A stretch of 31,441 nt of DNA, taken from a virus. The position numbers and the translations under genes were made by a program. This document shows positions 3,138 to 30,137 of this stretch, piece by piece; positions within the stretch are counted from its first letter, which is position 1, and each line of letters opens with the position of its first letter. The DNA lies in IMG/VR virus record IMGVR_UViG_3300021197_000639, positions 1-31,441 of that record; one strand, given 5' to 3'. The notes under the pieces are model-generated. The model did no database searches and was not told where the DNA came from. It worked only from the letters and a program-made list of their open reading frames with translations.

Positions 3138-4111
3138 GCCGCCTTTCCCTCCGAGTCCCGCCTTACTGCATTTTGAAACTCAGTAACGTCCAAGGTTCTA
3201 CGATTACCAACGGTCACAGAAACAAGCTCGTAATCTTTTATTATGCGGTAAACATAATTTCTGCTCACTCCGAAACGCTCACCTAATTGTGAGATGTTTA
3301 AGCGGTTACTTGTAATCTTAGAACCAAGATCCAACTGTTGCACTTCATCTGCATAGCTGGGCCAGATGCCACTAGATTGGCAAGCGGCCCATATTTGGCA
3401 CGCTCTTTCCATATTGCCAAACTGCTTATTTATGTCGCTCTCTTTGATAGTGTAGGCGGCAGTAGCATATGGTGCAGTCTTCTCAACCGCTAGGAAGATG
3501 AACTGCTTGGGCTTGAGTCCTAGCATTTGCAGTGCGTGCATATACCAGCACGCCTGGAAAAGGTATCCAAATTGACGCACACTTTTTGTGAATCCTTTTG
3601 GACTCGCATCCTGTGTGCTTTTTAAATCAATCACCACACCCGCGCCGGGAATAAATAAGTCAGGACGAACCTTACACTTAGCACCTTCCATCTCAAAGAA
3701 TCCCGTGCCTTCCACTACCTTATCAATGTCCGCCATGTAGTGTTTAAGGATAGGATTATCCAACGCACTTCCCGCCATTTCATTAGCAAGAAAATAATCA
3801 GCAGATGTAAGCCATTGTTTGTCCGGCTCATTCTTCTGCATCATTTCAAATGCTTCTTTGTAATGATTAGTTCTGGAGCTTTTCCCATCAATTTCTGTAG
3901 GCTTTACTGCGAACTCTTCATCCAACTTCTCAGGTTCCAATGTTGCCGTATGGAATGCACTCCCAAGAACAAGCGTAGGACTGCTTGGCTTGCGGTTATT
4001 CATTTCATACCTCACCTTTTCAGGGCATGACTGCAAGAGGGACCACGCAGTCGAGCGACCTAACTCGCTCGACCCGTGGTACTCGGCATTTGATATACCT
4101 AGCTTTAGCAT
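3134..4111 (-). CDS. RecE/exonuclease VIII-like nuclease fused to a C-terminal HTH
   Basis: This 325-aa protein has two parts. Residues about 1-255 form a PD-(D/E)XK exonuclease of the RecE/DUF3799 type. They include GSAFHTATLEPE at 50-61, the active-site PD at 150-151 (VRPDLFIPGAG), IDLKST with D162 and K164, and the QFGYLFQACWYMHAL helix at 180-194. Such enzymes resect dsDNA ends for single-strand annealing. Residues about 272-313 (ISQLGERFGVSRNYVYRIIKDY, then TLDVTEFQNAV) form a MerR/excisionase-type helix-turn-helix, which is not part of the standard enzyme. No RecT/Bet annealase is seen nearby, but an SSB gene lies just upstream. The start overlaps the RHH gene by 7 nt. The nuclease call is solid; the HTH's role is unknown. 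Confidence 0.82.
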   Translation of the reverse strand: MLKLGISNAEYHGSSELGRSTAWSLLQSCPEKVRYEMNNRKPSSPTLVLGSAFHTATLEPEKLDEEFAVKPTEIDGKSSRTNHYKEAFEMMQKNEPDKQWLTSADYFLANEMAGSALDNPILKHYMADIDKVVEGTGFFEMEGAKCKVRPDLFIPGAGVVIDLKSTQDASPKGFTKSVRQFGYLFQACWYMHALQMLGLKPKQFIFLAVEKTAPYATAAYTIKESDINKQFGNMERACQIWAACQSSGIWPSYADEVQQLDLGSKITSNRLNISQLGERFGVSRNYVYRIIKDYELVSVTVGNRRTLDVTEFQNAVRRDSEGKAA

Positions 4112-4293
4112 TGCGCCATCTCCCGTTTAATGATTTCGCGAACCCATGAGGACAGACTTTTCTGCTGTCCCTCTGTATGCTTGACTAGCTTACGCTTCAA
4201 ACTCAGTGGCATACAAATAGACAATGTCTGGTTAGGTTGTGCGGGATTCATCTTCTCGCCTTCGCAATAGTCTTTACTCTTGTACCTTGGCAT
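4105..4293 (-). CDS. Ribbon-helix-helix (CopG-like) protein
   Basis: This 62-aa protein is a likely small DNA-binding regulator. The core TLSICMPLSLKRKLVKHTEG gives the beta-strand and first helix, and SLSSWVREIIKREM the second helix, the usual ribbon-helix-helix arrangement with an N-cap before helix B. It begins at an ATG that overlaps the SSB stop (TGATG). A second ATG 14 codons in, preceded by AAGG at 7 nt, would give a 48-aa protein of standard RHH size. It could regulate the operon or the phased repeat arrays described at other loci, but nothing in the sequence proves a target. Confidence 0.72.
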   Translation of the reverse strand: MPRYKSKDYCEGEKMNPAQPNQTLSICMPLSLKRKLVKHTEGQQKSLSSWVREIIKREMAQC

Positions 4294-4917: not shown

Positions 4918-4932
4918 GTCCCACTATGGGAC
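4918..4932. promoter_or_regulatory. Palindrome over the start codon of the plus-strand RHH gene
   Basis: GTCCCA-CTA-TGGGAC is a perfect inverted repeat with 6-bp arms and a 3-bp centre. The ATG of the plus-strand RHH gene (4926) lies inside it. RHH repressors commonly bind short palindromes in their own promoter or leader, so this is a candidate autoregulatory operator. As RNA, the same arms would form a small hairpin hiding the start codon. The region is also the divergent spacer upstream of the SSB operon. Confidence 0.45.
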
Positions 4933-5132
4933 GAATAACCTTAACTAAGCCGATTTCTCTGCGGCTTTCACCGAGTGTCAGAGATAAAGTAAAGGCAGTT
5001 AGTGACTCTACAGGGCTGCTTCAGGCACAGGTGTTTGACCTAATACTCCAGGCAGCTTGTAAGGCGCTTGATGAGGGGGCTGAAGAAGATTCACTTCCCC
5101 TCCCAATTCACTTCCGGCTGGTAAAAAAGTAA
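4926..5132 (+). CDS. Ribbon-helix-helix protein on the opposite strand
   Basis: This 68-aa protein has an RHH-like layout: strand ITLTKPISLRLSPSVR, helix VRDKVKAVSDSTGL, helix LLQAQVFDLILQAACKAL, then an acidic linker and a basic end. It is one of only three plus-strand genes and diverges from the SSB operon, a classic position for a repressor. The ATG at 4926 is chosen; an upstream frame extension begins at TTG codons and adds a Cys-rich stretch unlike the domain. No Shine-Dalgarno is visible. The 3' end overlaps the convergent 83-aa gene by 125 nt. Codon pattern (purine-first codons such as GAT, GCA, GTT, GAC) supports it being real. Confidence 0.62.
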   Translation: MGRITLTKPISLRLSPSVRDKVKAVSDSTGLLQAQVFDLILQAACKALDEGAEEDSLPLPIHFRLVKK

Positions 5133-5259
5133 GTAACTCTTTTATCAGGTTCTCAATACCCACCTCTGTGGGTACTTCAGCCGTGATTATAATCTTGCCC
5201 GTGCCTCTGTGTTCCAAGCACAGTCCATCCATTTTTGAGGTGGTATGAATTGTAGTCAT
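5008..5259 (-). CDS. Hypothetical 83-aa protein overlapping the RHH gene antisense
   Basis: This frame starts at ATG 5259, inside a phased repeat array. Its first half has alternating strand-like and helical segments (GTGKIIITAEVPTEVGIENL, then IKELLTFLPAGSELG). Its codons are mostly purine-first, typical of translated DNA. The second half is Pro-rich (LLQPPHQAPYKLPGVLGQTP) and is exactly the part antisense to the RHH gene, so it may be a less constrained tail. I do not recognise a family. It lies between the integrase promoter region and the SSB operon and could belong to lysogeny control. It is less certain than the surrounding genes. Confidence 0.5.
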   Translation of the reverse strand: MTTIHTTSKMDGLCLEHRGTGKIIITAEVPTEVGIENLIKELLTFLPAGSELGGEVNLLQPPHQAPYKLPGVLGQTPVPEAAL

Positions 5260-5272
5260 GTGTAGTTATTTT
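5253..5272. promoter_or_regulatory. Phased decamer repeat (TAGT type), two units
   Basis: Two units, TAGTCATGTG and TAGTTATTTT, each preceded by TG, stand exactly 10 bp apart and cover the start codon of the 83-aa minus-strand gene. The arrangement closely matches 30104-30123 at the HTH gene (TAGTCTATTG, TAGTTTATGG) and is related to the TAGC arrays before portal and scaffold. A helical-turn spacing suggests cooperative protein binding on one DNA face. Confidence 0.5.
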
Positions 5273-5322: not shown

Positions 5323-6279
5323 CTAAAAGCTCCGCTGGATCGTAGGCATTCCAACATATACACGGGAGGTAATTTCCACACTGCTGTGACCAAGCGCTTT
5401 GCTCGCCACGAATGCATTGTTTCCATTCTCCCGCATCACTCTGTGTCCACAGTATTTTCGCAAACGATGAACAGGGCGATCATCCACCACCCCGCAAATT
5501 CGTCTAAGAAAAAATGGAAACTCACGGGTAATTCTGTCTTCCTGCACAGGAACGATTAAAGCATCGTTCGATGTTTTATAGGAGTTAAGAAGATCCCACC
5601 ATGAAGGATCACATGGTCTATCCTGGTATTCACCACCGCTTTTAGGGTCATGAATACGAATAAGTTTGTTTCCATCAAAGTCTTCGCGCAGATCATCAAA
5701 CCTTGCCCGCTGGATTTCACTACTGCGAAGACCCAATCCGTACGCTAATGCGTACATTAAATACATGTCCTTATCGGACTCCTTGAGTGCCTCGCACTTC
5801 GAGCGGATACTATCCAACTCTTTACGATTGGCATCAAATGGTGTGACCTGCACACCTTCTAAGGAAAGTGCAATCCAATTACTGAAATAGCTAGTGTCGA
5901 TTCCCAACTGCTTGTAACGCTTGATCCACGCCTTGGAAAAGATCGAGCGCGCTTGACGCATCTCATTGCATCCACGATGCGCTACCCAGTCATCGCAAAT
6001 CGGAATGCCTGCTCCCGTTTTACTAGCAAAACAGGTTATATCAGCACTTTCTAACTCAATGCCGTAGTGCTTTAGGATGGCCTCCATGCGCAGAATATTG
6101 TTATTTTTTGTCCGAGCGTTAGCCTGTCGCTTTGCTACGAGCGTTTGTGAGCGGTAAATTTTAAAGAGTTTATGAACGGGCTGATATTCACGCACACCTT
6201 CATATCGTATGAATACATTATCTGACATTGGGGTAACGGCTGTGTGTAAAGTATCTACGGAATCTTGTAAAGCATACAT
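5323..6279 (-). CDS. int: Tyrosine-family site-specific integrase
   Basis: This 318-aa recombinase integrates and excises the phage genome. The N-terminal half is a core-binding domain (about 40-150). The catalytic domain has the expected residues: Arg185 in GLGLRSSEIQRA, Lys213 in HDPKSGG, His271 and Arg274 in HRLRKYCGHR, His298 in ALGHSS, and the nucleophile Tyr308 in SRVYVG. All are intact, so the enzyme should be active. It starts at the ATG at 6279; a second ATG 17 codons in would also spare all motifs. The gene lies beside the tRNA-Lys fragment at 6345-6389, its probable attP core, and downstream of nested inverted repeats that may control it. No excisionase gene is obvious. Confidence 0.92.
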   Translation of the reverse strand: MYALQDSVDTLHTAVTPMSDNVFIRYEGVREYQPVHKLFKIYRSQTLVAKRQANARTKNNNILRMEAILKHYGIELESADITCFASKTGAGIPICDDWVAHRGCNEMRQARSIFSKAWIKRYKQLGIDTSYFSNWIALSLEGVQVTPFDANRKELDSIRSKCEALKESDKDMYLMYALAYGLGLRSSEIQRARFDDLREDFDGNKLIRIHDPKSGGEYQDRPCDPSWWDLLNSYKTSNDALIVPVQEDRITREFPFFLRRICGVVDDRPVHRLRKYCGHRVMRENGNNAFVASKALGHSSVEITSRVYVGMPTIQRSF

Positions 6280-6288
6280 GGCGTTTTA

Positions 6289-6335
6289 GGTTGTGATTTT
6301 ATTATTTTTAAAGTGTACTATTACACTTCACAACC
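6289..6335. promoter_or_regulatory. Nested inverted repeats between integrase and attP
   Basis: An outer pair, GGTTGTGA (6289-6296) and TCACAACC (6328-6335), encloses an inner pair, AAGTGTA (6311-6317) and TACACTT (6322-6328), with a 4-bp centre. Both pairs are perfect. They lie 10-56 bp upstream of the integrase start, between it and the tRNA core. Such sites could be repressor operators or integrase/excisionase arm sites. I see no strong -35/-10 pair here. Confidence 0.5.
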
Positions 6336-6344
6336 AACGCTAAT

Positions 6345-6390
<46 letters not shown>

Positions 6391-20450: not shown

Positions 20451-21416
20451 TTAATTAAAATATCCGTGAGCTTTTGGAGACAAGCAAGCAAGTCCAGCTA
20501 CTACGTCTACGAAACCTCTGCGACCGCCACCTTGATTCTCAAGCTCGGTAACAGACTCAGCTTTTAAGGACATCATGGATACATACTCAGGATCGATTAA
20601 GAGTCCTGCGTCTGCGTCTACTGTGTCACTACCTGACGTCCTATTTATAAAGAGGCTAGGAGTCACGAAAACATTCCCAAAGTCACCCTCATAAATATTG
20701 ACTGATAAGGTTATTTTCTTACTCTCAGCATCTTGATTGACAACATATGTTCCGTTGGTAGCTGCAAGCTGACGTGAGAAGTTACTGATCTCTTTCTTGA
20801 GGCTTGGGCCTGCAAGTAAGGTCAACTGTCCACCAGGCATTCCGTTAGCTTCGTAGAGTTCTTGAAGAACACTATTAAAGGTAGCTTCGGTTTGTGTACC
20901 TGTGGTGTCATTAGCAACATTCTGTGCAAAGGCAGGGATGTCGGAAGGTTGTCCACCAACTCCAAGCCATTTCAGCATACCACGTGTTTTGTAAGGCGCA
21001 CCTGCTCCAGCGTCTGCTTGACGATCCTGTGCAGAACAGAATGCACTTTCAATTGAACGTTTTACGTTGCGTACGGCTTTGCTTTCCGCGTTTGCAAATT
21101 CCGATGAAATTCCTGCACTATCCACCATCTCTTGAATATCTGACACCATGAACGTATCACGAAATTTTTGTATATAATTTCCGATGCGCGCCCGGTCAGC
21201 AGATTGATTGGTGAAGCTCGAAACATCTTCTCCTTCTTCGATTCCAGAAAAATCGGGCGAGTTGAGGCGGTCAACCTGCATTTCAAAGAATGTTCCGGTT
21301 GCTTTTCCCTTTTTAATCATAGAAACGAACGGTGTCGCTTCTGGTTCTAGAACTGAAATAATCGAAGTTAAATCTTCACGATTTCCAGCAGTATTGTAAG
21401 TAGTGGCTTTAGCCAT
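20451..21416 (-). CDS. Major capsid protein (SU10/DUF5309-like)
   Basis: This 321-aa protein has the opening TYNTAGNREDLTSIISVLEP, then ATPFVSMIKKGKATGTFFEM and QVDRL, with SADRARIGNYIQKFRDTFMV and SDIQEMVDSAGISSEFANAE. These landmarks match the DUF5309/SU10-type capsid family, which has an HK97-like fold. The middle helix KAVRNVKRSIESAFCSAQ and the later LAGPSLKKEISNFS fit the same pattern. It follows the scaffold gene and has AAGGAGGA 8 nt before the ATG, a very strong ribosome site suited to the most abundant virion protein. Confidence 0.88.
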   Translation of the reverse strand: MAKATTYNTAGNREDLTSIISVLEPEATPFVSMIKKGKATGTFFEMQVDRLNSPDFSGIEEGEDVSSFTNQSADRARIGNYIQKFRDTFMVSDIQEMVDSAGISSEFANAESKAVRNVKRSIESAFCSAQDRQADAGAGAPYKTRGMLKWLGVGGQPSDIPAFAQNVANDTTGTQTEATFNSVLQELYEANGMPGGQLTLLAGPSLKKEISNFSRQLAATNGTYVVNQDAESKKITLSVNIYEGDFGNVFVTPSLFINRTSGSDTVDADAGLLIDPEYVSMMSLKAESVTELENQGGGRRGFVDVVAGLACLSPKAHGYFN

Positions 21417-21445: not shown

Positions 21446-22543
21446 TTATTTTACGATTGCTCGCTTTAGTTTTATGTAATTCTGGTAGTCTGCTATATTG
21501 CCTGATTTCTCAAACTTGGCATGAGCCGCCTGTAGAGCTTTCTGATGTTTACTTCCCTCGGATCTTGGTTTACTCGCACCTGCTTCAGCACTTGCGACAG
21601 GAGCAGTTGGTTTCTTTAAGACCTTGGGTTGACTTGCACTTGCTTGCCGGGCTTGTATTGCCTTGTAACCTTCCACCATAAGTCCCAATGCAAAATTACT
21701 ATTGGGTAGGTGATCGACTAAAGGTTTATACATTGGGCTTTGCTTCACCTGCATGAACATCTTGTAGTCATCACTTTCGCCATCACTTAGGAACTCGAAA
21801 GTTTGGACTGCTTGTTGGTCACTTGCTTGACGTTCCTTTATCCAGGCTTGTCGAGCAGGAGCATCTTTGCGAAGTATCTTTTTTGCATTCGCTTTGATTC
21901 TCCGAAGATCAGACTTCGTATAAGTCTTTTCCCCATCCTTGACCACAAACTCATTACCAGCGTCATCGTACTCAACTTCGTTTTCCATCCCTTCGTCTGC
22001 CCATTCAATGAGCGTGTTAAGGTTCTCAACTTCCTTGGTGAGTGCGTTGACATCTGTGACGTTATGCAGGGCATTATCCTTGAGGAATGCAGGTGCTTCG
22101 GCAGGCACGGGTGCTTGCTGAACTTGCTGCTGTAACTCTTGATTCTCAGCCAACAGTGCTTTCTTCTGTGCGGTTAGCTTTCCAAACCGCTTGATTGCAG
22201 AAGCATTTAACTGTTTAGCTAAGTTCTTAGCATCCTCCTCGGATAATGAATCCAAGTCTATTTTATATTTAGAAAGAACATCTGAAGGTTCTACGGGCGG
22301 TTCAGTTGATTCCTCATCTGATTCATCCGACTCTTCAGCAGACTGTGCCTCTGGTTCCTCTTCTTCCGCAGTTTCTTCAACGGTTTCAGGTTCCTCATCA
22401 GCAGTTTCAGTTTCCTCGGCTTGGCGGCTCTTCATCAGACTTGATGCTAGTTCTGCCATTGTGAGGTTACCTTCACTTTGCGTTAAACTATCCACAGAAT
22501 TTTCGGAGGACTCTGAGACAACCTCTTCTTGTAATGTTTCCAT
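21446..22543 (-). CDS. Capsid scaffolding protein
   Basis: This 365-aa protein is highly acidic in its first third (about 40-88, runs of Glu and Asp such as EETAEEEEPEAQSAEESDES). A coiled-coil segment follows (about 120-145, FGKLTAQKKALLAENQELQQ with QVQQAP), then helical segments and a basic C-terminus (KLKRAIVK). Acidic, helical, directly before the capsid gene: this is the profile of a scaffold that guides procapsid assembly and leaves by its basic end. Its transcription likely begins at the promoter-like array at 22560-22604, just after a terminator. No good Shine-Dalgarno is visible. Confidence 0.78.
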   Translation of the reverse strand: METLQEEVVSESSENSVDSLTQSEGNLTMAELASSLMKSRQAEETETADEEPETVEETAEEEEPEAQSAEESDESDEESTEPPVEPSDVLSKYKIDLDSLSEEDAKNLAKQLNASAIKRFGKLTAQKKALLAENQELQQQVQQAPVPAEAPAFLKDNALHNVTDVNALTKEVENLNTLIEWADEGMENEVEYDDAGNEFVVKDGEKTYTKSDLRRIKANAKKILRKDAPARQAWIKERQASDQQAVQTFEFLSDGESDDYKMFMQVKQSPMYKPLVDHLPNSNFALGLMVEGYKAIQARQASASQPKVLKKPTAPVASAEAGASKPRSEGSKHQKALQAAHAKFEKSGNIADYQNYIKLKRAIVK

Positions 22544-22559
22544 AAGAGCAAGGCATAAA

Positions 22560-22604
22560 TAGCCTAGTGTAGCAAAATGTAGCCTATTGTAGCTAGAAGG
22601 GCAA
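22560..22604 (-). promoter_or_regulatory. Promoter-like region with four phased TAGC decamers before scaffold
   Basis: On the plus strand four units, TAGCCTAGTG, TAGCAAAATG, TAGCCTATTG and TAGCTAGAAG, stand at exact 10-bp spacing (22560-22599). Read on the minus strand the same DNA has TTGCCC (22604-22599), a 17-bp spacer and TACATT (22581-22576), a sigma70-like pair. The scaffold ATG is about 30 bp farther on. The portal array has the same TTGCCC-17-TACATT frame. The repeats may be a binding site for a phage activator or repressor of late transcription. Confidence 0.6.
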
Positions 22605-22642
22605 TAAAAAAGCCCCCCGTGTTACCCCTAACACGGAGGGCT
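22605..22642 (-). terminator. Rho-independent terminator before the scaffold promoter
   Basis: AGCCCCCCGTGTTA (22611-22624) pairs with TAACACGGAGGGCT (22629-22642) in a 14-position stem with one mismatch and a CCCC/GGGG loop. On the minus strand it is followed by a T run (22610-22606). It would stop transcripts coming from the portal and small-protein genes, immediately before the promoter-like element for the scaffold-capsid unit. Confidence 0.9.
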
Positions 22643-22670
22643 AGTGGGGTGTCACACACACATCCAAAGA

Positions 22671-22907
22671 TTAAAGCTTATAGAAATTGTCTAGTTCTTC
22701 GTCTATTGCTTCAAGCTTGCCTGAAATATGAAAGTGTAAGTTTAAATTTTCAATGTTTGCTGGAGTCTGCAACGCACGAATGGTTTCTTCACGCATAGCT
22801 TCACGCAACTCAATATATCTTTTGAAGTTAGGATCGTTTTTAAGAACGGACAGCGCTCGGAATGCTTCCTCTTGATCGATCTCATGATTTGTTTTTCTTA
22901 GCTTCAT
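22671..22907 (-). CDS. Hypothetical 78-aa helical protein
   Basis: The protein reads MKLRKTNHEIDQEEAFRALS, then a helix LKNDPNFKRYIELREAMREE, and ends KLEAIDEELDNFYKL. It is strongly helical and acidic near the C-terminus. It is the last gene before the terminator at 22605-22642. I cannot assign a function; the position among portal and scaffold genes suggests a head-assembly accessory. Confidence 0.68.
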   Translation of the reverse strand: MKLRKTNHEIDQEEAFRALSVLKNDPNFKRYIELREAMREETIRALQTPANIENLNLHFHISGKLEAIDEELDNFYKL

Positions 22908-22950
22908 TTAAAGTTTTCGTAAACTATGGATAGTGTGAAAAATAAAGTGT

Positions 22951-23028
22951 CTATGATGATGTTTCGCTCGATGAAGAACATGACCAGCAATACGATCCAA
23001 TAGACTTCTCTTTGCAGATGGGACACAT
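22951..23028 (-). CDS. Microprotein with a CxxC...CxxC zinc-ribbon knuckle pair (25 aa)
   Basis: A 25-codon frame begins MCPICKEKSIGSYCWSCSSS and ends within five more residues. It has CPIC at 2-5 and CWSC at 14-17, two zinc-knuckle-like pairs spaced as in a minimal zinc ribbon. Its ATG overlaps the TAA of the 48-aa gene upstream (TAATG), so it would be translated by coupling. Such a short peptide is easily missed. It could bind a partner or nucleic acid, or be a chance frame; the two CxxC motifs make chance less likely. Confidence 0.55.
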   Translation of the reverse strand: MCPICKEKSIGSYCWSCSSSSETSS

Positions 23029-23174
23029 TACTTGCGTTTTTTCTTTGCAGTCTTGGCTGCTTTCTTAAATGCCTTGGCAGTTGGCGCGCCTTTTGATCCA
23101 GGCTTTCTCATCTTTTCACCACTACCTTTTTTTATACGCTTTCTTTTAGCGTGTATGTTTTTATATAGACTCAT
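23028..23174 (-). CDS. Small basic phage protein (48 aa, MSLYKNIHAKRKR type)
   Basis: The protein reads MSLYKNIHAKRKRIKKGSGE, then KMRKPGSKGAPTAKAFKKAA and a Lys-rich end. It is a very basic, widely distributed small phage protein type that I recall from many marine phage genomes near portal genes; no function has been assigned that I know of. It lies between the 86-aa basic gene and the CxxC microprotein. High charge suggests nucleic-acid binding, perhaps inside the head. Confidence 0.8.
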   Translation of the reverse strand: MSLYKNIHAKRKRIKKGSGEKMRKPGSKGAPTAKAFKKAAKTAKKKRK

Positions 23175-23435
23175 CTAACAGTTCCATGCTTTGCGTGACC
23201 AATAGTTGGCACTAAGTTTTGTATTCTTTCCTTTGATACCACCTGATCTCGCACAGTAGCTCTTCTTGCGCGCAGGTTGGCTTTTCTTAATACTTAAATT
23301 TGCGTCACCAAAGCGAATGGTCTTTTTCTTTCCACCCTCAGAAGCTAGGACTACAAACTTCTTCTTACCATAACCAGGCTCACCTTTGCGGATACGCCTT
23401 GGGCTATTTACTTTACTTGGTCTTCCGCTTGCCAC
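23175..23435 (-). CDS. Small basic conserved phage protein (86 aa, DUF5872-like)
   Basis: Starting at a GTG, the protein has NSPRRIRKGEPGYGKKKFVV, then a strand GGKKKTIRFGDANLSIKKSQ, and ends ARYWS-like (SANYWSRKAWNC). The 'FGD.N..IKK..P.R...' core followed by a Tyr-Trp-Ser end is a pattern of small phage proteins sometimes labelled DUF5872. Its start overlaps the 29-aa gene in another frame. It is basic and Cys-containing, so nucleic-acid binding is plausible but not shown. Confidence 0.72.
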   Translation of the reverse strand: MASGRPSKVNSPRRIRKGEPGYGKKKFVVLASEGGKKKTIRFGDANLSIKKSQPARKKSYCARSGGIKGKNTKLSANYWSRKAWNC

Positions 23436-23502
23436 ACTTCTTCTTTTTCTTCTTAGGTGGTCTACCTACCTTAGTTCCGTATGTCCCTTTTCCCATTGGC
23501 AT
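23413..23502 (-). CDS. Very small basic phage protein (29 aa, MPMGKGTYG type)
   Basis: The frame reads MPMGKGTYGTKVGRPPKKKK and nine more mostly basic residues. A strong AGGAGG site, embedded in the last codons of the portal gene, lies 8 nt before the ATG. The MPMGKGTYG-KVGRPPKKK pattern recurs in many phage genomes directly after the portal gene. No function is known to me. It overlaps the start of the 86-aa gene by 23 nt in a different frame. Confidence 0.78.
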   Translation of the reverse strand: MPMGKGTYGTKVGRPPKKKKKKCGKRKTK

Positions 23503-23506
23503 AATC

Positions 23507-25594
23507 TTATCCTCCTGTTGGTGCTGATCCTGTTTGCCCAAACTGTGTAGGGGCGGCCCCTAGTCTTCCAATCTGAGCGTTTTGTTTTTGCTGGATCTGC
23601 ATATTTCTTTGTTGCATATAATTCTGAATACGCTCCTGTAATGCCGGATCTTGTTGTACCTTTTGTGCTACATCTGGTTGCTGTAACCACTGTTGAAACA
23701 CTTGAAGTTTCATCTCATGGGCATCATTGGGTTTAACATTAGGAGGTACACCTGCATAGATTTCTGCAATGGTCTGTCTTTCTTCCTCCATTGCTTTTGC
23801 CTGTGCAGTCTCCTTGGGAAGTAAAATGCTTTCGGCTGCACCTGGCATGATCTGTCCAACTGCAATCTGTAGTAATCGCTCAGTGTCAAGCGTTCCATTC
23901 TTATCAAGCTGTGCGCCAAGTGATGCTATTGCATTTACCCGTTCGAGCATTTGCTCTGGGTCTTGAGTGGCAGCATCAAACTGCATATAAAAGTCAAAAC
24001 GATCATTGGGATTACCCTTGGAATACTTCTGCATATCCTGCATTCCTGTGACTCTAAAGTATTCCTGATCAGGACCATACTGTTGGTAAAGTGAGTACAC
24101 TTGATCAAGCACATGTTTGAGGTGGTGAAAGACTTTATCTATTACCTCCTGCTGTTTCATCTGTGCTTCCACAGGATTTACTCCAGGTGCGTTTCTACCA
24201 AAGTATCTATCTGCTTGCTCCTGTATATATCTGCGAAGTTCTACATTGGATACGGAACCTCTAGGAGTGGATGCAAATCTTACCTCGCCCGGTACGCGAT
24301 AGGGTAACCTGACTCCAGGGCCATAGCGACTTGGTGCGCGACCAAGCGGGTGTTCCAAAGGTGGTAGAGTTGCAAGTGATTGTGAATCAACCCCTGCGTC
24401 TGTTTCCACTTTCAGTACTTGTTGCAACCCTTCAATGAGTTCTGGGTATGATCTCGATGAGTAAAGTTTCTTACTTGTTTTTTCTAATGTAGTTACGACA
24501 AATGGATACTTGCCATGTGCATAATCAAGTAATTGATGTTTGGCATAAAGATCAGATATATTGGCATGGTAAATTGTACAGTAGATGCCGGGGACATTAT
24601 CCTCGTCCAATAGTCTTTGATAACAGTACACAATTCTAACAAGACTATCATCATCACTTCTAGTAAAATTATCATCCTCGCGGAGTTGGTAGATATTTTC
24701 ATCCACATCCTCTCCCTGTCCAGCCAACTCAATGGCTGCATCCACGAACTCTTCTGACCATTTTTCGGTGCTAATTTTAGACCTTAATTGCTCAGGAGTC
24801 ATCGAAACCACATGAAACATATACGGAGCTTCCTGTGGATCGATTGCATAACTAGGCCAAAACACATCCTCATCTGGGGCAAGGGCTTTGATCTTGGGTC
24901 TGCTTACCACTTGACGGGTCACAGGAACAGTGGTCTCACCATCCTTGCGCATCTCTTTGAGCATTCCCCTAGCTTTGGATTTACTAATGTTAAACTGTCC
25001 TTTAAGGGCCTCGCTTAACTCCTCATCCATGCTGCCATCCTGAATAGCTGTGGCAATCTGTGGCAGTGCCTGGGCAATCTCCTGTAAACTGATGGTCTGC
25101 TGTTGTTTTAATTCCTTATTCTCATACCAGCAGTAATGAACCATCATGCCTTTCTCAAAGAAATGATTCAGTCCAAGTTCAACTTCAGGGTAAAATTCAT
25201 CCATCTTGGAATTAATTAACCATCGTAAAAAGTTACTTACCACATTTGCACGCTCCACATCATTTGATTCTGTGGGAGTGGCTACAATGTGCGCACGTCT
25301 TATCGCATTCATGCTCATTGCAATCCGGCAGGAAATCAATTCATCGCAAAGTCTTACCTGCTGATCACTTGCACCTTCCCAGGGGAATACCTCACCTGTG
25401 GAATTTAAAGAAGCATGTTTCTTAAAATCATCTGATTGCCCTGACCAATGACAATGGCGGGTATCATAATCTCTTTGCCTGCGGTCTAACCATTCACCTA
25501 AATCGCTTTGGGTACGTTTGTACGCTTCGGCCAAGTAAGCAATGTCAGGCTCTTTTGAGACATATAGTAATTCAGGATCTGCGGCAGACTGCAT
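23507..25594 (-). CDS. Portal protein
   Basis: This 695-aa protein lies directly after the terminase gene and before the scaffold/capsid group. The N-terminal half has EAYKRTQSDLGEWLDRRQRD and a central ring-forming region (ALAPDEDVFWPSYAIDPQEA, VSMTPEQLRSKISTEKWSEE). LIEGLQQVLKVETDAGVDSQ and RVPGEVRFASTPRG follow, then the helix YIQEQADRYFGRNAPGVN. The C-terminus is Gln-rich and helical (RIQNYMQQRNMQIQQKQNAQ), probably the barrel or crown. Size and organisation fit portals of short-tailed phages. Its start lies at the end of a three-unit phased array, leaving almost no leader and no Shine-Dalgarno. Confidence 0.86.
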   Translation of the reverse strand: MQSAADPELLYVSKEPDIAYLAEAYKRTQSDLGEWLDRRQRDYDTRHCHWSGQSDDFKKHASLNSTGEVFPWEGASDQQVRLCDELISCRIAMSMNAIRRAHIVATPTESNDVERANVVSNFLRWLINSKMDEFYPEVELGLNHFFEKGMMVHYCWYENKELKQQQTISLQEIAQALPQIATAIQDGSMDEELSEALKGQFNISKSKARGMLKEMRKDGETTVPVTRQVVSRPKIKALAPDEDVFWPSYAIDPQEAPYMFHVVSMTPEQLRSKISTEKWSEEFVDAAIELAGQGEDVDENIYQLREDDNFTRSDDDSLVRIVYCYQRLLDEDNVPGIYCTIYHANISDLYAKHQLLDYAHGKYPFVVTTLEKTSKKLYSSRSYPELIEGLQQVLKVETDAGVDSQSLATLPPLEHPLGRAPSRYGPGVRLPYRVPGEVRFASTPRGSVSNVELRRYIQEQADRYFGRNAPGVNPVEAQMKQQEVIDKVFHHLKHVLDQVYSLYQQYGPDQEYFRVTGMQDMQKYSKGNPNDRFDFYMQFDAATQDPEQMLERVNAIASLGAQLDKNGTLDTERLLQIAVGQIMPGAAESILLPKETAQAKAMEEERQTIAEIYAGVPPNVKPNDAHEMKLQVFQQWLQQPDVAQKVQQDPALQERIQNYMQQRNMQIQQKQNAQIGRLGAAPTQFGQTGSAPTGG

Positions 25595-25599
25595 ATGCG

Positions 25600-25634
25600 T
25601 AGCATAATGTAGCTACTTGTAGCCATTAGGGCAA
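25600..25634 (-). promoter_or_regulatory. Promoter-like region with three phased TAGC decamers before portal
   Basis: Plus-strand units TAGCATAATG, TAGCTACTTG and TAGCCATTAG are spaced exactly 10 bp (25600-25629). On the minus strand, TTGCCC (25634-25629), a 17-bp spacer and TACATT (25611-25606) form a promoter-like pair identical in layout to the scaffold one. The portal ATG begins at 25594, only 12 bp past the -10-like box, so a transcript from here would be nearly leaderless, or the array acts mainly as a binding site. Confidence 0.58.
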
Positions 25635-28662: not shown

Positions 28663-29664
28663 TCATTTGTTCATTTCCTTCCATAAAGTCTTCCATGCTA
28701 GTTCTGCGGTTTGGGGGACAACTCCATTCCCCAAGAGCCTAAGTCTGTCCACCCTGTGCTGAGTCCCATGAGTTGCTCCACCCAATTCGGATTGAGCTTC
28801 GGTGACCCGTGGTTCTTCCCACTCGTATTGCTCTTCTCCTGGTCTTGCAGGCCATTGTGTTTCTTCGCTTCCTCCGCTAGTATCTTGCCCCCCGTTCCAG
28901 GCTTGCGACTGCCGGGGTTCCCGGCTCGCGGTGTGGGCCAATTCATCTGATTCAAGTCTCTCCCCAAGCACTTCTGATTGCTCTCCTTCGCAGTTCTCGC
29001 TCCCTCGATGTGGTCGGAGGCTTGTGGAGTTGCCCAGTTCTTGTTTTGATAAATCATTCTGGGTAAAGTCACATCTCCTATCTTGCTCGGTGAGCATCCT
29101 GGAGTGTCTTTCCAATCCCTCGATCTTGGCGTTGGGTAGTTTCGCAAGGATGAACACTCGTTTCCTTTGGTGTGGCGAGCCAACTTCTTCCGCACTGAAT
29201 ATACCCCACGCGCATCTATAACCTTCTTCTTCCAAATCGGACAGGACTCGCCATAACCCCATCGTGGTGTGTCCTGCGACATTTTCCCAAAAGCACCAAA
29301 CAGGTCTAATTGCCCTGACGTGCTTGAGGATGTATGGCCATAAGTGTCTTGGGTCTTTTTCTCCTTGTCGCTTCCCTGCTGAACTGAATGGCTGGCATGG
29401 ATATCCTCCAATGAGTCCGTGTACTTTTCCACGAAACTCTGATGCAGGGAAGGTTTTAAGATCCGTCCAGATAGGGCAGTTAGCCATGAGTTTCTGTTCA
29501 ATCTTCGCAACCAAGTTTGCTTGGACGAAGGTTTCGATCTCCACATTGCAGACTGTTCTAACATCCACGCCTGCTCGTCTAATGCCAAGTTCAAGCCCTC
29601 CGTATCCGGTACAAAAGCTGATAATGTTTTGGGTACTATCCACACAGTCTTCCCTTCCTGTCAT
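28663..29664 (-). CDS. DNA (cytosine-5) methyltransferase
   Basis: This enzyme transfers a methyl group from AdoMet to cytosine C5, probably guarding phage DNA from host nucleases or tagging its own sites. The chosen ATG (29664) has GGAG 4 nt upstream. Motif I (SFCTGYGGLELG), motif IV with the catalytic Cys (GGYPCQPFSSAGK), motif VI (ENVAG), motif VIII (QRKRVFILA) and motif X (RLRLLGNGVVPQTAELAW) are all present. The target-recognition region between VIII and X is long, polar and made of repeated short segments (LPNAKIEGLERHS, LGNSTSLRPHRGS, LAHTASREPRQS). This same DNA is open in a second frame for 315 codons. No cognate restriction gene is visible. Confidence 0.9.
   Translation of the reverse strand: MTGREDCVDSTQNIISFCTGYGGLELGIRRAGVDVRTVCNVEIETFVQANLVAKIEQKLMANCPIWTDLKTFPASEFRGKVHGLIGGYPCQPFSSAGKRQGEKDPRHLWPYILKHVRAIRPVWCFWENVAGHTTMGLWRVLSDLEEEGYRCAWGIFSAEEVGSPHQRKRVFILAKLPNAKIEGLERHSRMLTEQDRRCDFTQNDLSKQELGNSTSLRPHRGSENCEGEQSEVLGERLESDELAHTASREPRQSQAWNGGQDTSGGSEETQWPARPGEEQYEWEEPRVTEAQSELGGATHGTQHRVDRLRLLGNGVVPQTAELAWKTLWKEMNK
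28698..29645 (-). CDS. Overprinted frame within the methyltransferase gene (WPTP-repeat protein)
   Basis: A 315-codon frame, +1 relative to the methyltransferase, starts at GTG 29645 and ends at 28698, so it lies wholly inside the methyltransferase coding sequence. Its C-terminal half has three spaced copies of a WPTP-like segment: NYPTPRSRDWKD, NWATPQASDHIE and NWPTPRAGNPGS. It ends LNPNWVEQLMGLSTGWTDLG. An earlier stretch has LDLFGAFGKMSQDTPRWG. I recall these landmarks from separate phage proteins that neighbour Dcm genes. Whether this frame is translated here is unproven; constraint from the methyltransferase could create the resemblance. No clear ribosome site precedes the GTG. Confidence 0.4.
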   Translation of the reverse strand: MWIVPKTLSAFVPDTEGLNLALDEQAWMLEQSAMWRSKPSSKQTWLRRLNRNSWLTALSGRILKPSLHQSFVEKYTDSLEDIHASHSVQQGSDKEKKTQDTYGHTSSSTSGQLDLFGAFGKMSQDTPRWGYGESCPIWKKKVIDARGVYSVRKKLARHTKGNECSSLRNYPTPRSRDWKDTPGCSPSKIGDVTLPRMIYQNKNWATPQASDHIEGARTAKESNQKCLGRDLNQMNWPTPRAGNPGSRKPGTGGKILAEEAKKHNGLQDQEKSNTSGKNHGSPKLNPNWVEQLMGLSTGWTDLGSWGMELSPKPQN

Positions 29665-30100
29665 ACTCTCCGACCAAGCAATACATATCTCCATCCTCCT
29701 GCTTGACCTTCACAACACTACCCAATCCAAACTCTCCGGGCTTTGCACGGAACTTGCCATGACTACCATCACTAAATTCTATAAATCTAAGATATGGATT
29801 CTTGGGTAACATATATACCTTTGCACTCACTATACCCTCCATACTCTGGGCAATCATTCCCGCCTTGATCACTGCCCTCTCCTGCTGGGCAGTCTCAATC
29901 ATCTCATCCACTTCCCCCAACTCCTGCTCAACTAACAACTCACTCTCCAACTCCTCCAATTTAGCCACCATCTTCTTAGAGAACCTCTTCAGACTAAATG
30001 CCATCCTCGCGGTACTCGCCTTTACTCCAAGCATCTTACCAAATGCACTCTTACTTATCCCATGTGCCTCCAATATCTTTCCCGCCCTTTCCGTGTCCAT
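29636..30100 (-). CDS. HTH regulator (Xre/Cro-like)
   Basis: This 154-aa protein has an N-terminal helix-turn-helix, with AGKILEAHGISKSAFGKMLG followed by VKASTARMAFSLKRF, and a coiled-coil linker (KLEELESELLVEQELGEVDE). A C-terminal domain has PKNPYLRFIEFSDGSHGKFR and DMYCLVGEYDRKGRL. It is probably a transcription regulator of the neighbouring promoters. The chosen ATG (30100) directly follows the phased array; a TTG start 12 codons earlier would lie inside the palindrome at 30124-30137. It is divergent from the plus-strand genes and overlaps the methyltransferase start by 29 nt. Confidence 0.7.
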   Translation of the reverse strand: MDTERAGKILEAHGISKSAFGKMLGVKASTARMAFSLKRFSKKMVAKLEELESELLVEQELGEVDEMIETAQQERAVIKAGMIAQSMEGIVSAKVYMLPKNPYLRFIEFSDGSHGKFRAKPGEFGLGSVVKVKQEDGDMYCLVGEYDRKGRLCG

Positions 30101-30103
30101 GTG

Positions 30104-30123
30104 TAGTCTATTGTAGTTTATGG
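30104..30123. promoter_or_regulatory. Phased decamer repeat (TAGT type) at the HTH gene start
   Basis: Two units, TAGTCTATTG and TAGTTTATGG, each preceded by TG, are spaced 10 bp apart, just upstream of the HTH gene ATG. On the minus strand this also gives TACAAT, a possible -10 box, 15 bp from a TTGACA in the adjoining palindrome. The pattern matches 5253-5272 closely and is shared, as TAGC, with the portal and scaffold arrays. Confidence 0.52.
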
Positions 30124-30137
30124 ATTGACCTGTCAAT
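30124..30137. promoter_or_regulatory. Palindromic operator candidate between divergent genes
   Basis: ATTGAC-CT-GTCAAT is a perfect inverted repeat with 6-bp arms. It contains TTGACA on the minus strand and TTGACC on the plus strand, both -35-like, so one protein bound here could control both the HTH gene and the plus-strand genes starting at 30161. It abuts the phased array at 30104-30123. The adjacent HTH protein is the obvious candidate ligand. Confidence 0.58.

Follow-up and report, generated by a model that had tools for sequence, protein, structure and literature searches.

Why do four genes of one virus begin at the same short repeats, spaced exactly 10 bp apart, and which protein could read them? 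The question is raised by a 31.4-kb virus record (IMG/VR IMGVR_UViG_3300021197_000639, positions 1 to 31,441; the whole stretch is called here the window). All four target genes are encoded on the minus strand, and on it the unit RCTACA recurs (TAGC or TAGT on the plus strand) with a period of exactly 10 bp at the starts of a portal gene, a scaffold-type gene, a helix-turn-helix (HTH) regulator gene and a gene for a protein of 83 amino acids (aa). In our opinion, with a probability of roughly 0.6 judged from sequence comparison, the repeats serve as tandem DNA operators of a single regulator encoded by the phage, the most likely one being the Arc-like ribbon-helix-helix (RHH) protein of 4926-5132 (+).

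The portal gene (23507..25594, minus strand; 695 aa) has 80 related loci, and a distant relative is annotated as a portal protein. Its putative operator array at 25598..25623 (-), GCTACA-AGTA-GCTACA-TTAT-GCTACG, consists of three units (plus-strand TAGC at 25600, 25610 and 25620). The 365-aa scaffold-type protein (21446..22543, -), for which no family match was found, is named by the position of its gene directly upstream of that of the major head protein (20451-21416, PHROG 1328). Its putative operator array at 22558..22593 (-) comprises three GCTACA units and a fourth degenerate one, GGCTAT, again with a 10-bp period (TAGC at 22560, 22570, 22580 and 22590). At the 154-aa HTH regulator gene (29636..30100, -) the array ACTACA-ATAG-ACTACA occupies 30102..30117 (-; TAGT at 30104 and 30114), and at the 83-aa gene (5008..5259, -) ACTACA-CATG-ACTACA at 5251..5266 (-; TAGT at 5253 and 5263) spans the ATG at 5259. 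The start of the HTH gene was placed at the ATG at 30100, and not at the upstream TTG of a longer open reading frame, because relatives align from there. The positions and the period given for these four loci in an earlier note on this DNA were exact. Its remark that the portal, HTH and 83-aa genes have no Shine-Dalgarno sequence and that their start codons lie inside or adjoin the array was also borne out, in contrast to the clear Shine-Dalgarno sequences of the major head protein gene (AAGGAGG) and a 142-aa gene (AAGGAG).

The background frequency, which the note had proposed to compare with shuffled sequence, was estimated from 300 dinucleotide shuffles of the window. Seven strict [AG]CTAC pairs at 10 bp were observed against a shuffle mean of 0.10 (maximum 2), and two triple units at this period against none; TAGC triples numbered 3, with a shuffle mean and maximum of 0. 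For the looser form, TAG[CT] pairs of the plus strand, the count was 10 and the shuffle mean 1.55 (maximum 6). Thus, the looser two-unit form alone is just moderately unusual, and the strict form is not due to chance. One strict pair, at 14922-14908 (minus), lies off any gene start, within a 559-aa coding frame. Rfam and tRNA scans of the window gave no matches.

At the portal and scaffold genes the arrays coincide with core promoters. The motif TTGCCC-17-TACATT, which had been noticed at both genes on the minus strand, is real at both promoters: at 25606..25634 (-) for the portal gene (TTGCCC 25634-25629, 17 bp, TACATT 25611-25606; ATG at 25594) and at 22576..22604 (-) for the scaffold gene (TTGCCC 22604-22599, 17 bp, TACATT 22581-22576). 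Its general form TTGNYN-17-TANNNT stands at a near-fixed distance before the portal gene in 30/31 relatives and before the scaffold gene in 29/30 (59/61 together), with a background of 0.12 per kb. Since the portal -10 hexamer ends mostly 10-11 nt (range 8-14) before the ATG, the predicted start of transcripts of this gene is about 4-5 nt upstream of the ATG, and they would be near-leaderless. Promoters are less evident at the HTH and 83-aa genes. A special phage promoter class, which the earlier note had entertained, or a phage RNA polymerase was rejected, the portal and scaffold hexamers being ordinary sigma70-like ones overlaid by the array; no polymerase was found among the gene matches of the window. 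The array at these two genes is thus best described as a putative operator laid over ordinary sigma70-like promoters.

The conservation of the arrays was followed in relatives. A portal scan of viral contigs matched 220 related stretches, 80 of them being kept. In 15 genomes of the family, direct [AG]CTAC repeats occur 44 times at the 10-bp spacing, and each of the other spacings between 5 and 40 bp gave 0-11 occurrences. Strict arrays on the gene's strand were found within -80/+20 of the four homologous genes in 65/77 cases (36 genomes or contigs). When the best direct pair near a gene start was allowed up to 2 mismatches, it was present at 22/22 of the 83-aa genes, 25/27 of the HTH genes, 25/29 of the scaffold genes and 21/30 of the portal genes, compared with none at the control starts of TerL (0/30), exonuclease (0/26) and the 142-aa gene (0/23) and with about 4.6% of random 90-bp segments. 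Pairs with 2 mismatches 5' of the major head protein gene (15/29) were left uncounted; they belong to conserved coding sequence, namely the last part of the scaffold gene. A further 16 records, picked by the RHH gene and not by the array, gave 28 matches to the exact array pattern and 1 to the reversed control. The earlier idea of a promoter-linked element shared by four genes therefore holds: it is kept in relatives at the same loci, is absent from control gene starts and occurs little in coding DNA.

Individual loci add further detail. The HTH array reads ACTACATAAGGCTACAA-ATG, ACTACATAAGGTGACAA-ATG or ACTACGAGTGACTACRC-ATG in relatives, and the array of the 83-aa gene is kept even outside the coding frame (G001, G003, G031). 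In the clade of the window both late promoters have direct repeats, and the portal array is kept in G015, G014 and G028, but many other relatives have a single direct portal unit with inverted sites (TTGACTACATAAGGnnnCTAATGTAGttttaTGCTACAC-ATG; inverted pairs at 17 bp were counted nine times in the 15 family genomes). In clade 2 the portal pairs precede the -35 box, standing at -59 to -62, and at the G003 scaffold promoter the upper units are inverted in the same place. An array, ACTACAAACAGCTACAAATG, was also seen ahead of an accessory gene starting MNHILSLGAGVQSS (G031:5636, -), and a similar one in L340:4515 (+) ahead of a gene starting MKHILSLGAGVQSS; both genes are possibly PAPS-reductase-like, and the array looks as if it had been acquired together with the gene or the gene had been placed into the regulon. 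A triple-unit scan of viral contigs returned 64 stretches, some belonging to this family and others unrelated, some of the latter being plain tandem repeats.

Clade 2 carries one more element, a dyad TGTAAGG-N7-CCTTACA located between the -35 and -10 boxes of the portal and scaffold promoters and nowhere else. It is present exactly twice in each of nine records, G008, G009, G012, G019, G020, L334, L340, L341 and L348 (for example, G008:26957 and 30634; G009:16019 and 19200). It is a putative second late-gene operator. The geometry of arrays and dyad also shows that the portal and scaffold promoters change together.

Which protein would bind the arrays? The RHH gene at 4926..5132 (+), encoding 68 aa, lies between the 83-aa gene and the gene of the single-stranded DNA-binding protein (SSB), convergent with the former and divergent from the latter, and was present in every examined record spanning the interval from integrase to SSB, bar one subclade. 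The 3' ends of the 83-aa and RHH genes overlap antisense (window 5008-5132), an arrangement recurring in relatives. The sequence pattern KPxSLRL-helix-TGL-helix fits RHH proteins of the Arc/MetJ type, in which a short N-terminal strand precedes two helices within about 45 residues; in the N-terminal strand KPxSLRL the residues K, P, S, R and L, including K7, S10 and R12, are invariant, like the DNA unit. PHROG 3431, 'Arc-like repressor', was matched by 6/9 members of the family (best E 4.8e-5), and the protein of the window alone had no match and, in Pfam, just BrnA antitoxin at 0.05. An AlphaFold2 monomer has the expected helices, 15-28 and 32-48, after an N-terminal stretch, the strand, which is paired only in the dimer, being unformed. 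Sequence searches of solved structures with the RHH and HTH proteins found nothing significant. The suggestion that ribbon-helix-helix proteins encoded nearby are the binders thus narrows to this one as the best candidate on sequence grounds; the other, an RHH-like protein of 62 aa at 4105-4293, was set aside, as just G015, G022 and G030 carry it.

The exceptional subclade comprises 7 records (G008 and G035-G040). Its integrase gene is followed directly by SSB, with neither the RHH nor the 83-aa gene present. No array is left at the HTH gene (4 mismatches in both genomes compared with 0-3 in RHH-bearing genomes), the upstream portal pair is likewise missing, and the exact pattern gave 0 matches in 6 records. 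In the portal tree G008/G035 are nested in clade 2, the other main branches of which keep the portal pair, so that loss of the arrays is more likely than their original absence.

According to the proposed mechanism, RHH dimers would occupy adjacent units in a cooperative manner, all on the same face of the helix. As the portal and scaffold units overlap the sigma70 spacer, the -10 box and the transcription start, the bound protein would exclude RNA polymerase, and the virion genes would be kept silent in the lysogen and in early infection. The sites at the HTH gene, where the protein would also block polymerase, and those at the 83-aa gene would link lysogeny control to the late genes, and the 83-aa transcript would run antisense into the RHH gene. 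The layout itself, several short repeats on one helical face over core promoters, is that of a tandem operator.

A number of observations weigh against this assignment. The 10 bp found here is not a spacing known for other RHH operators (8 in MetJ, 7 in omega and about 11 in Arc). Nine relatives have direct pairs at the portal only at 3 mismatches, with inverted sites instead, and G009 and similar genomes have a scaffold promoter without an array. As regards autoregulation, the RHH gene's own promoter has only weaker pairs, with 1-2 mismatches in 24/26 cases and some at a 12-bp spacing, and the DNA there is shared with the region upstream of SSB. Arc, CopG and MazE-type antitoxins are among the top fold matches of the RHH model, and these matches are not significant (best E 2.9). 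The RHH gene was lost in a single event (100/99 support), which makes it one independent test of its association with the arrays; RHH binding, repression and lysogeny timing are accordingly inferred, and what is shown are the arrays, their conservation, the core promoters, the RHH gene and the joint absence in this subclade. The 83-aa gene was lost jointly with the RHH gene, and L332, the sister of the RHH-less subclade, also has no portal pair and may or may not carry the RHH gene.

Among other explanations, the arrays may be operators of the HTH protein, which would then be an autoregulated lysogeny regulator similar to CII of phage lambda. An array does stand at the HTH gene's own start, the gene was found in all genomes covering the locus, and 10-bp direct repeats match the CII geometry. 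We nevertheless regard it as rather unlikely: the array-less G008 and G036 still carry the HTH gene, the recognition helix varies by clade (GVKPITVRLAF, GVKASTARMAF, GIKANSFRMNL) when the unit does not, and there were no CII proteins among the top Foldseek matches. Moreover, a separate dyad, TTGACAGGTCAA, located at 30125..30136 between the divergent HTH and 172-aa genes and containing the candidate HTH -35 box, takes clade-specific forms in relatives (TTGACAGGTCAA, CTTGCATTGTCAAG, TTGACATAGCAA); because it changes with the HTH clade, it suits the HTH protein better than the array does and is a candidate HTH operator. In L175, TTGACTAGTCAA was seen at the portal too. Binding by some other phage protein, such as the 172-aa or the 83-aa product, or by a factor of the host is also unlikely; such a binder might activate late genes from the clade-2 site. 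The position of the clade-2 portal arrays at -59 to -62 is activator-like, and the 83-aa gene was lost jointly with the RHH gene in the G008 subclade. However, an activator bound to the units of clade 1 would obstruct polymerase, since these lie over the core promoter; G008, which has no arrays, still encodes the 172-aa protein; and no DNA-binding domain could be recognised in the 83-aa product.

Action of the repeats in RNA, as a translation start signal independent of Shine-Dalgarno sequences or as the site of a translational repressor beside the AUG, is very improbable. The last unit does usually abut the start codon of genes that have no Shine-Dalgarno sequence, and ACTACAAACAGCTACAAATG stands at the start of accessory genes. 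Against this, the portal spacer units and the clade-2 upstream units lie outside the transcript of the predicted promoter, and the scaffold units of the window are 15-50 nt from the scaffold AUG; the inverted units of G003 and the clade-2 pairs placed before the -35 box speak for a DNA-binding protein rather than an RNA element. It is hardly credible that chance, coding constraint and conserved -10 and start-site sequences happening to lie 10 bp apart have produced the whole pattern. Two scaffold units do coincide with the -10 box (CTACATT) and with the highly conserved start region TTGCTACAC, and the codons ATGACTACA of the 83-aa gene account for one unit, but the spacer, HTH and non-coding 83-aa units are conserved independently, and the spacing counts, the reversed control, the shuffles and the control gene starts disagree with such an origin.

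The RHH operator reading can be compared with several known systems. Arc of phage P22 is likewise a phage RHH repressor, and the RHH family considered here matches PHROG 3431; Arc acts at a single operator of two half-sites between divergent promoters, unlike the direct arrays at four loci found here. The lambda CII sites, TTGC-N6-TTGC, have a 10-bp direct-repeat geometry at phage lysogeny promoters, but CII is an HTH activator straddling the -35 box with another unit sequence, and no CII-like binder was recognised here. Short repeats overlying core promoters, from one to several and oriented either way, are bound by dimers of the RHH protein omega of plasmid pSM19035, which resembles the present layout; omega differs in its 7-bp units and its targets, plasmid copy-number and partition genes. 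Its heptad repeats are the subject of work cited in PMC5016525. The closest working model is the RHH repressor F55 of the virus SSV1, which keeps lysogeny and whose short sites (ATAGATAGAGT) stand in multiple copies at a number of viral promoters, its own among them (PMC9608457, PMC5569661). Like the protein proposed here, it is a small RHH protein of a temperate virus with multi-copy short sites at several promoters; unlike it, F55 works at archaeal virus promoters on an 11-nt unit and early-gene targets, whereas here the promoters are those of virion genes and binding is proposed from comparison. SvtR of SIRV1 represses the promoter of a structural gene and its own promoter (PMC5569661) and is thus similar in having a structural-gene target, but it is archaeal, with imperfect inverted repeats and a site far upstream from which it spreads. 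For both F55 and SvtR the resemblance concerns how the switch would work and is not a tested kinship.

Some other features of the window should be mentioned. An intrinsic-terminator-like hairpin with a T run can be read from the sequence at about 22605-22643, just upstream of the scaffold promoter. A scaffold mRNA leader hairpin, AGGC-N7-GCCT, at 22551..22565 (-) pairs across relatives as AGGC/GCCT, AGGT/ACCT and ACGC/GCGT (pairing in 97% of cells, changes on both sides in 7 cells; 0-1 in slid controls); its folding energy is not better than that of shuffled sequence, the hairpin being too small. The HTH regulator has an XRE-type N-terminal domain (HTH_3, best E 4e-4 among relatives), and AlphaFold2 with Foldseek gave an XRE-like HTH, a long helix and a C-terminal beta barrel. 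The best fold matches of the barrel include OB domains of the S1/IF-1/eIF1A type (probability 1.00, E 5e-3 to 1e-2); homology to IF-1 was not supported: profile comparison found no sequence homology, and the likeness is one of fold only.

The gene set is that of a temperate phage: integrase (5323-6279), SSB, exonuclease, resolvase, helicase, TerL, portal, scaffold, head and tail genes. A sequence resembling a tRNA 3' end, GGTTCGAGTCCCCGGCCCGGTACCA, at about 6320-6380 (-), just upstream of the integrase gene, is a probable attP. The nearest annotated phage is C75C1 (39% portal), for which a literature search found no paper. The nearest cellular portals (73%) in a set of 84,980 genomes of bacteria and archaea are on contigs of metagenome-assembled genomes of Verrucomicrobiota/Opitutae. 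A marine Verrucomicrobium is therefore the probable host, although contigs of this kind are a lead and not a proof.

Tentatively, and with somewhat less than even odds, a wider picture may be drawn. One small RHH repressor would directly gate both late virion promoters, the HTH regulator and an early post-integrase gene, without an antiterminator, sigma factor or phage polymerase; the operator of the late promoters would be swapped or doubled between clades (array versus TGTAAGG-N7-CCTTACA) in step at both genes, and portal transcription would be near-leaderless. Such wiring is new, and the kind of switch is already known. If true, it would provide a regulatory map with a named regulator, sites and target genes, which could be tested in a heterologous host, for a phage family that is abundant (220 related viral-contig stretches), uncultured and connected with marine Verrucomicrobia. 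The paired operator changes at the portal and scaffold genes would then represent a natural experiment on the rewiring of late genes by a phage.

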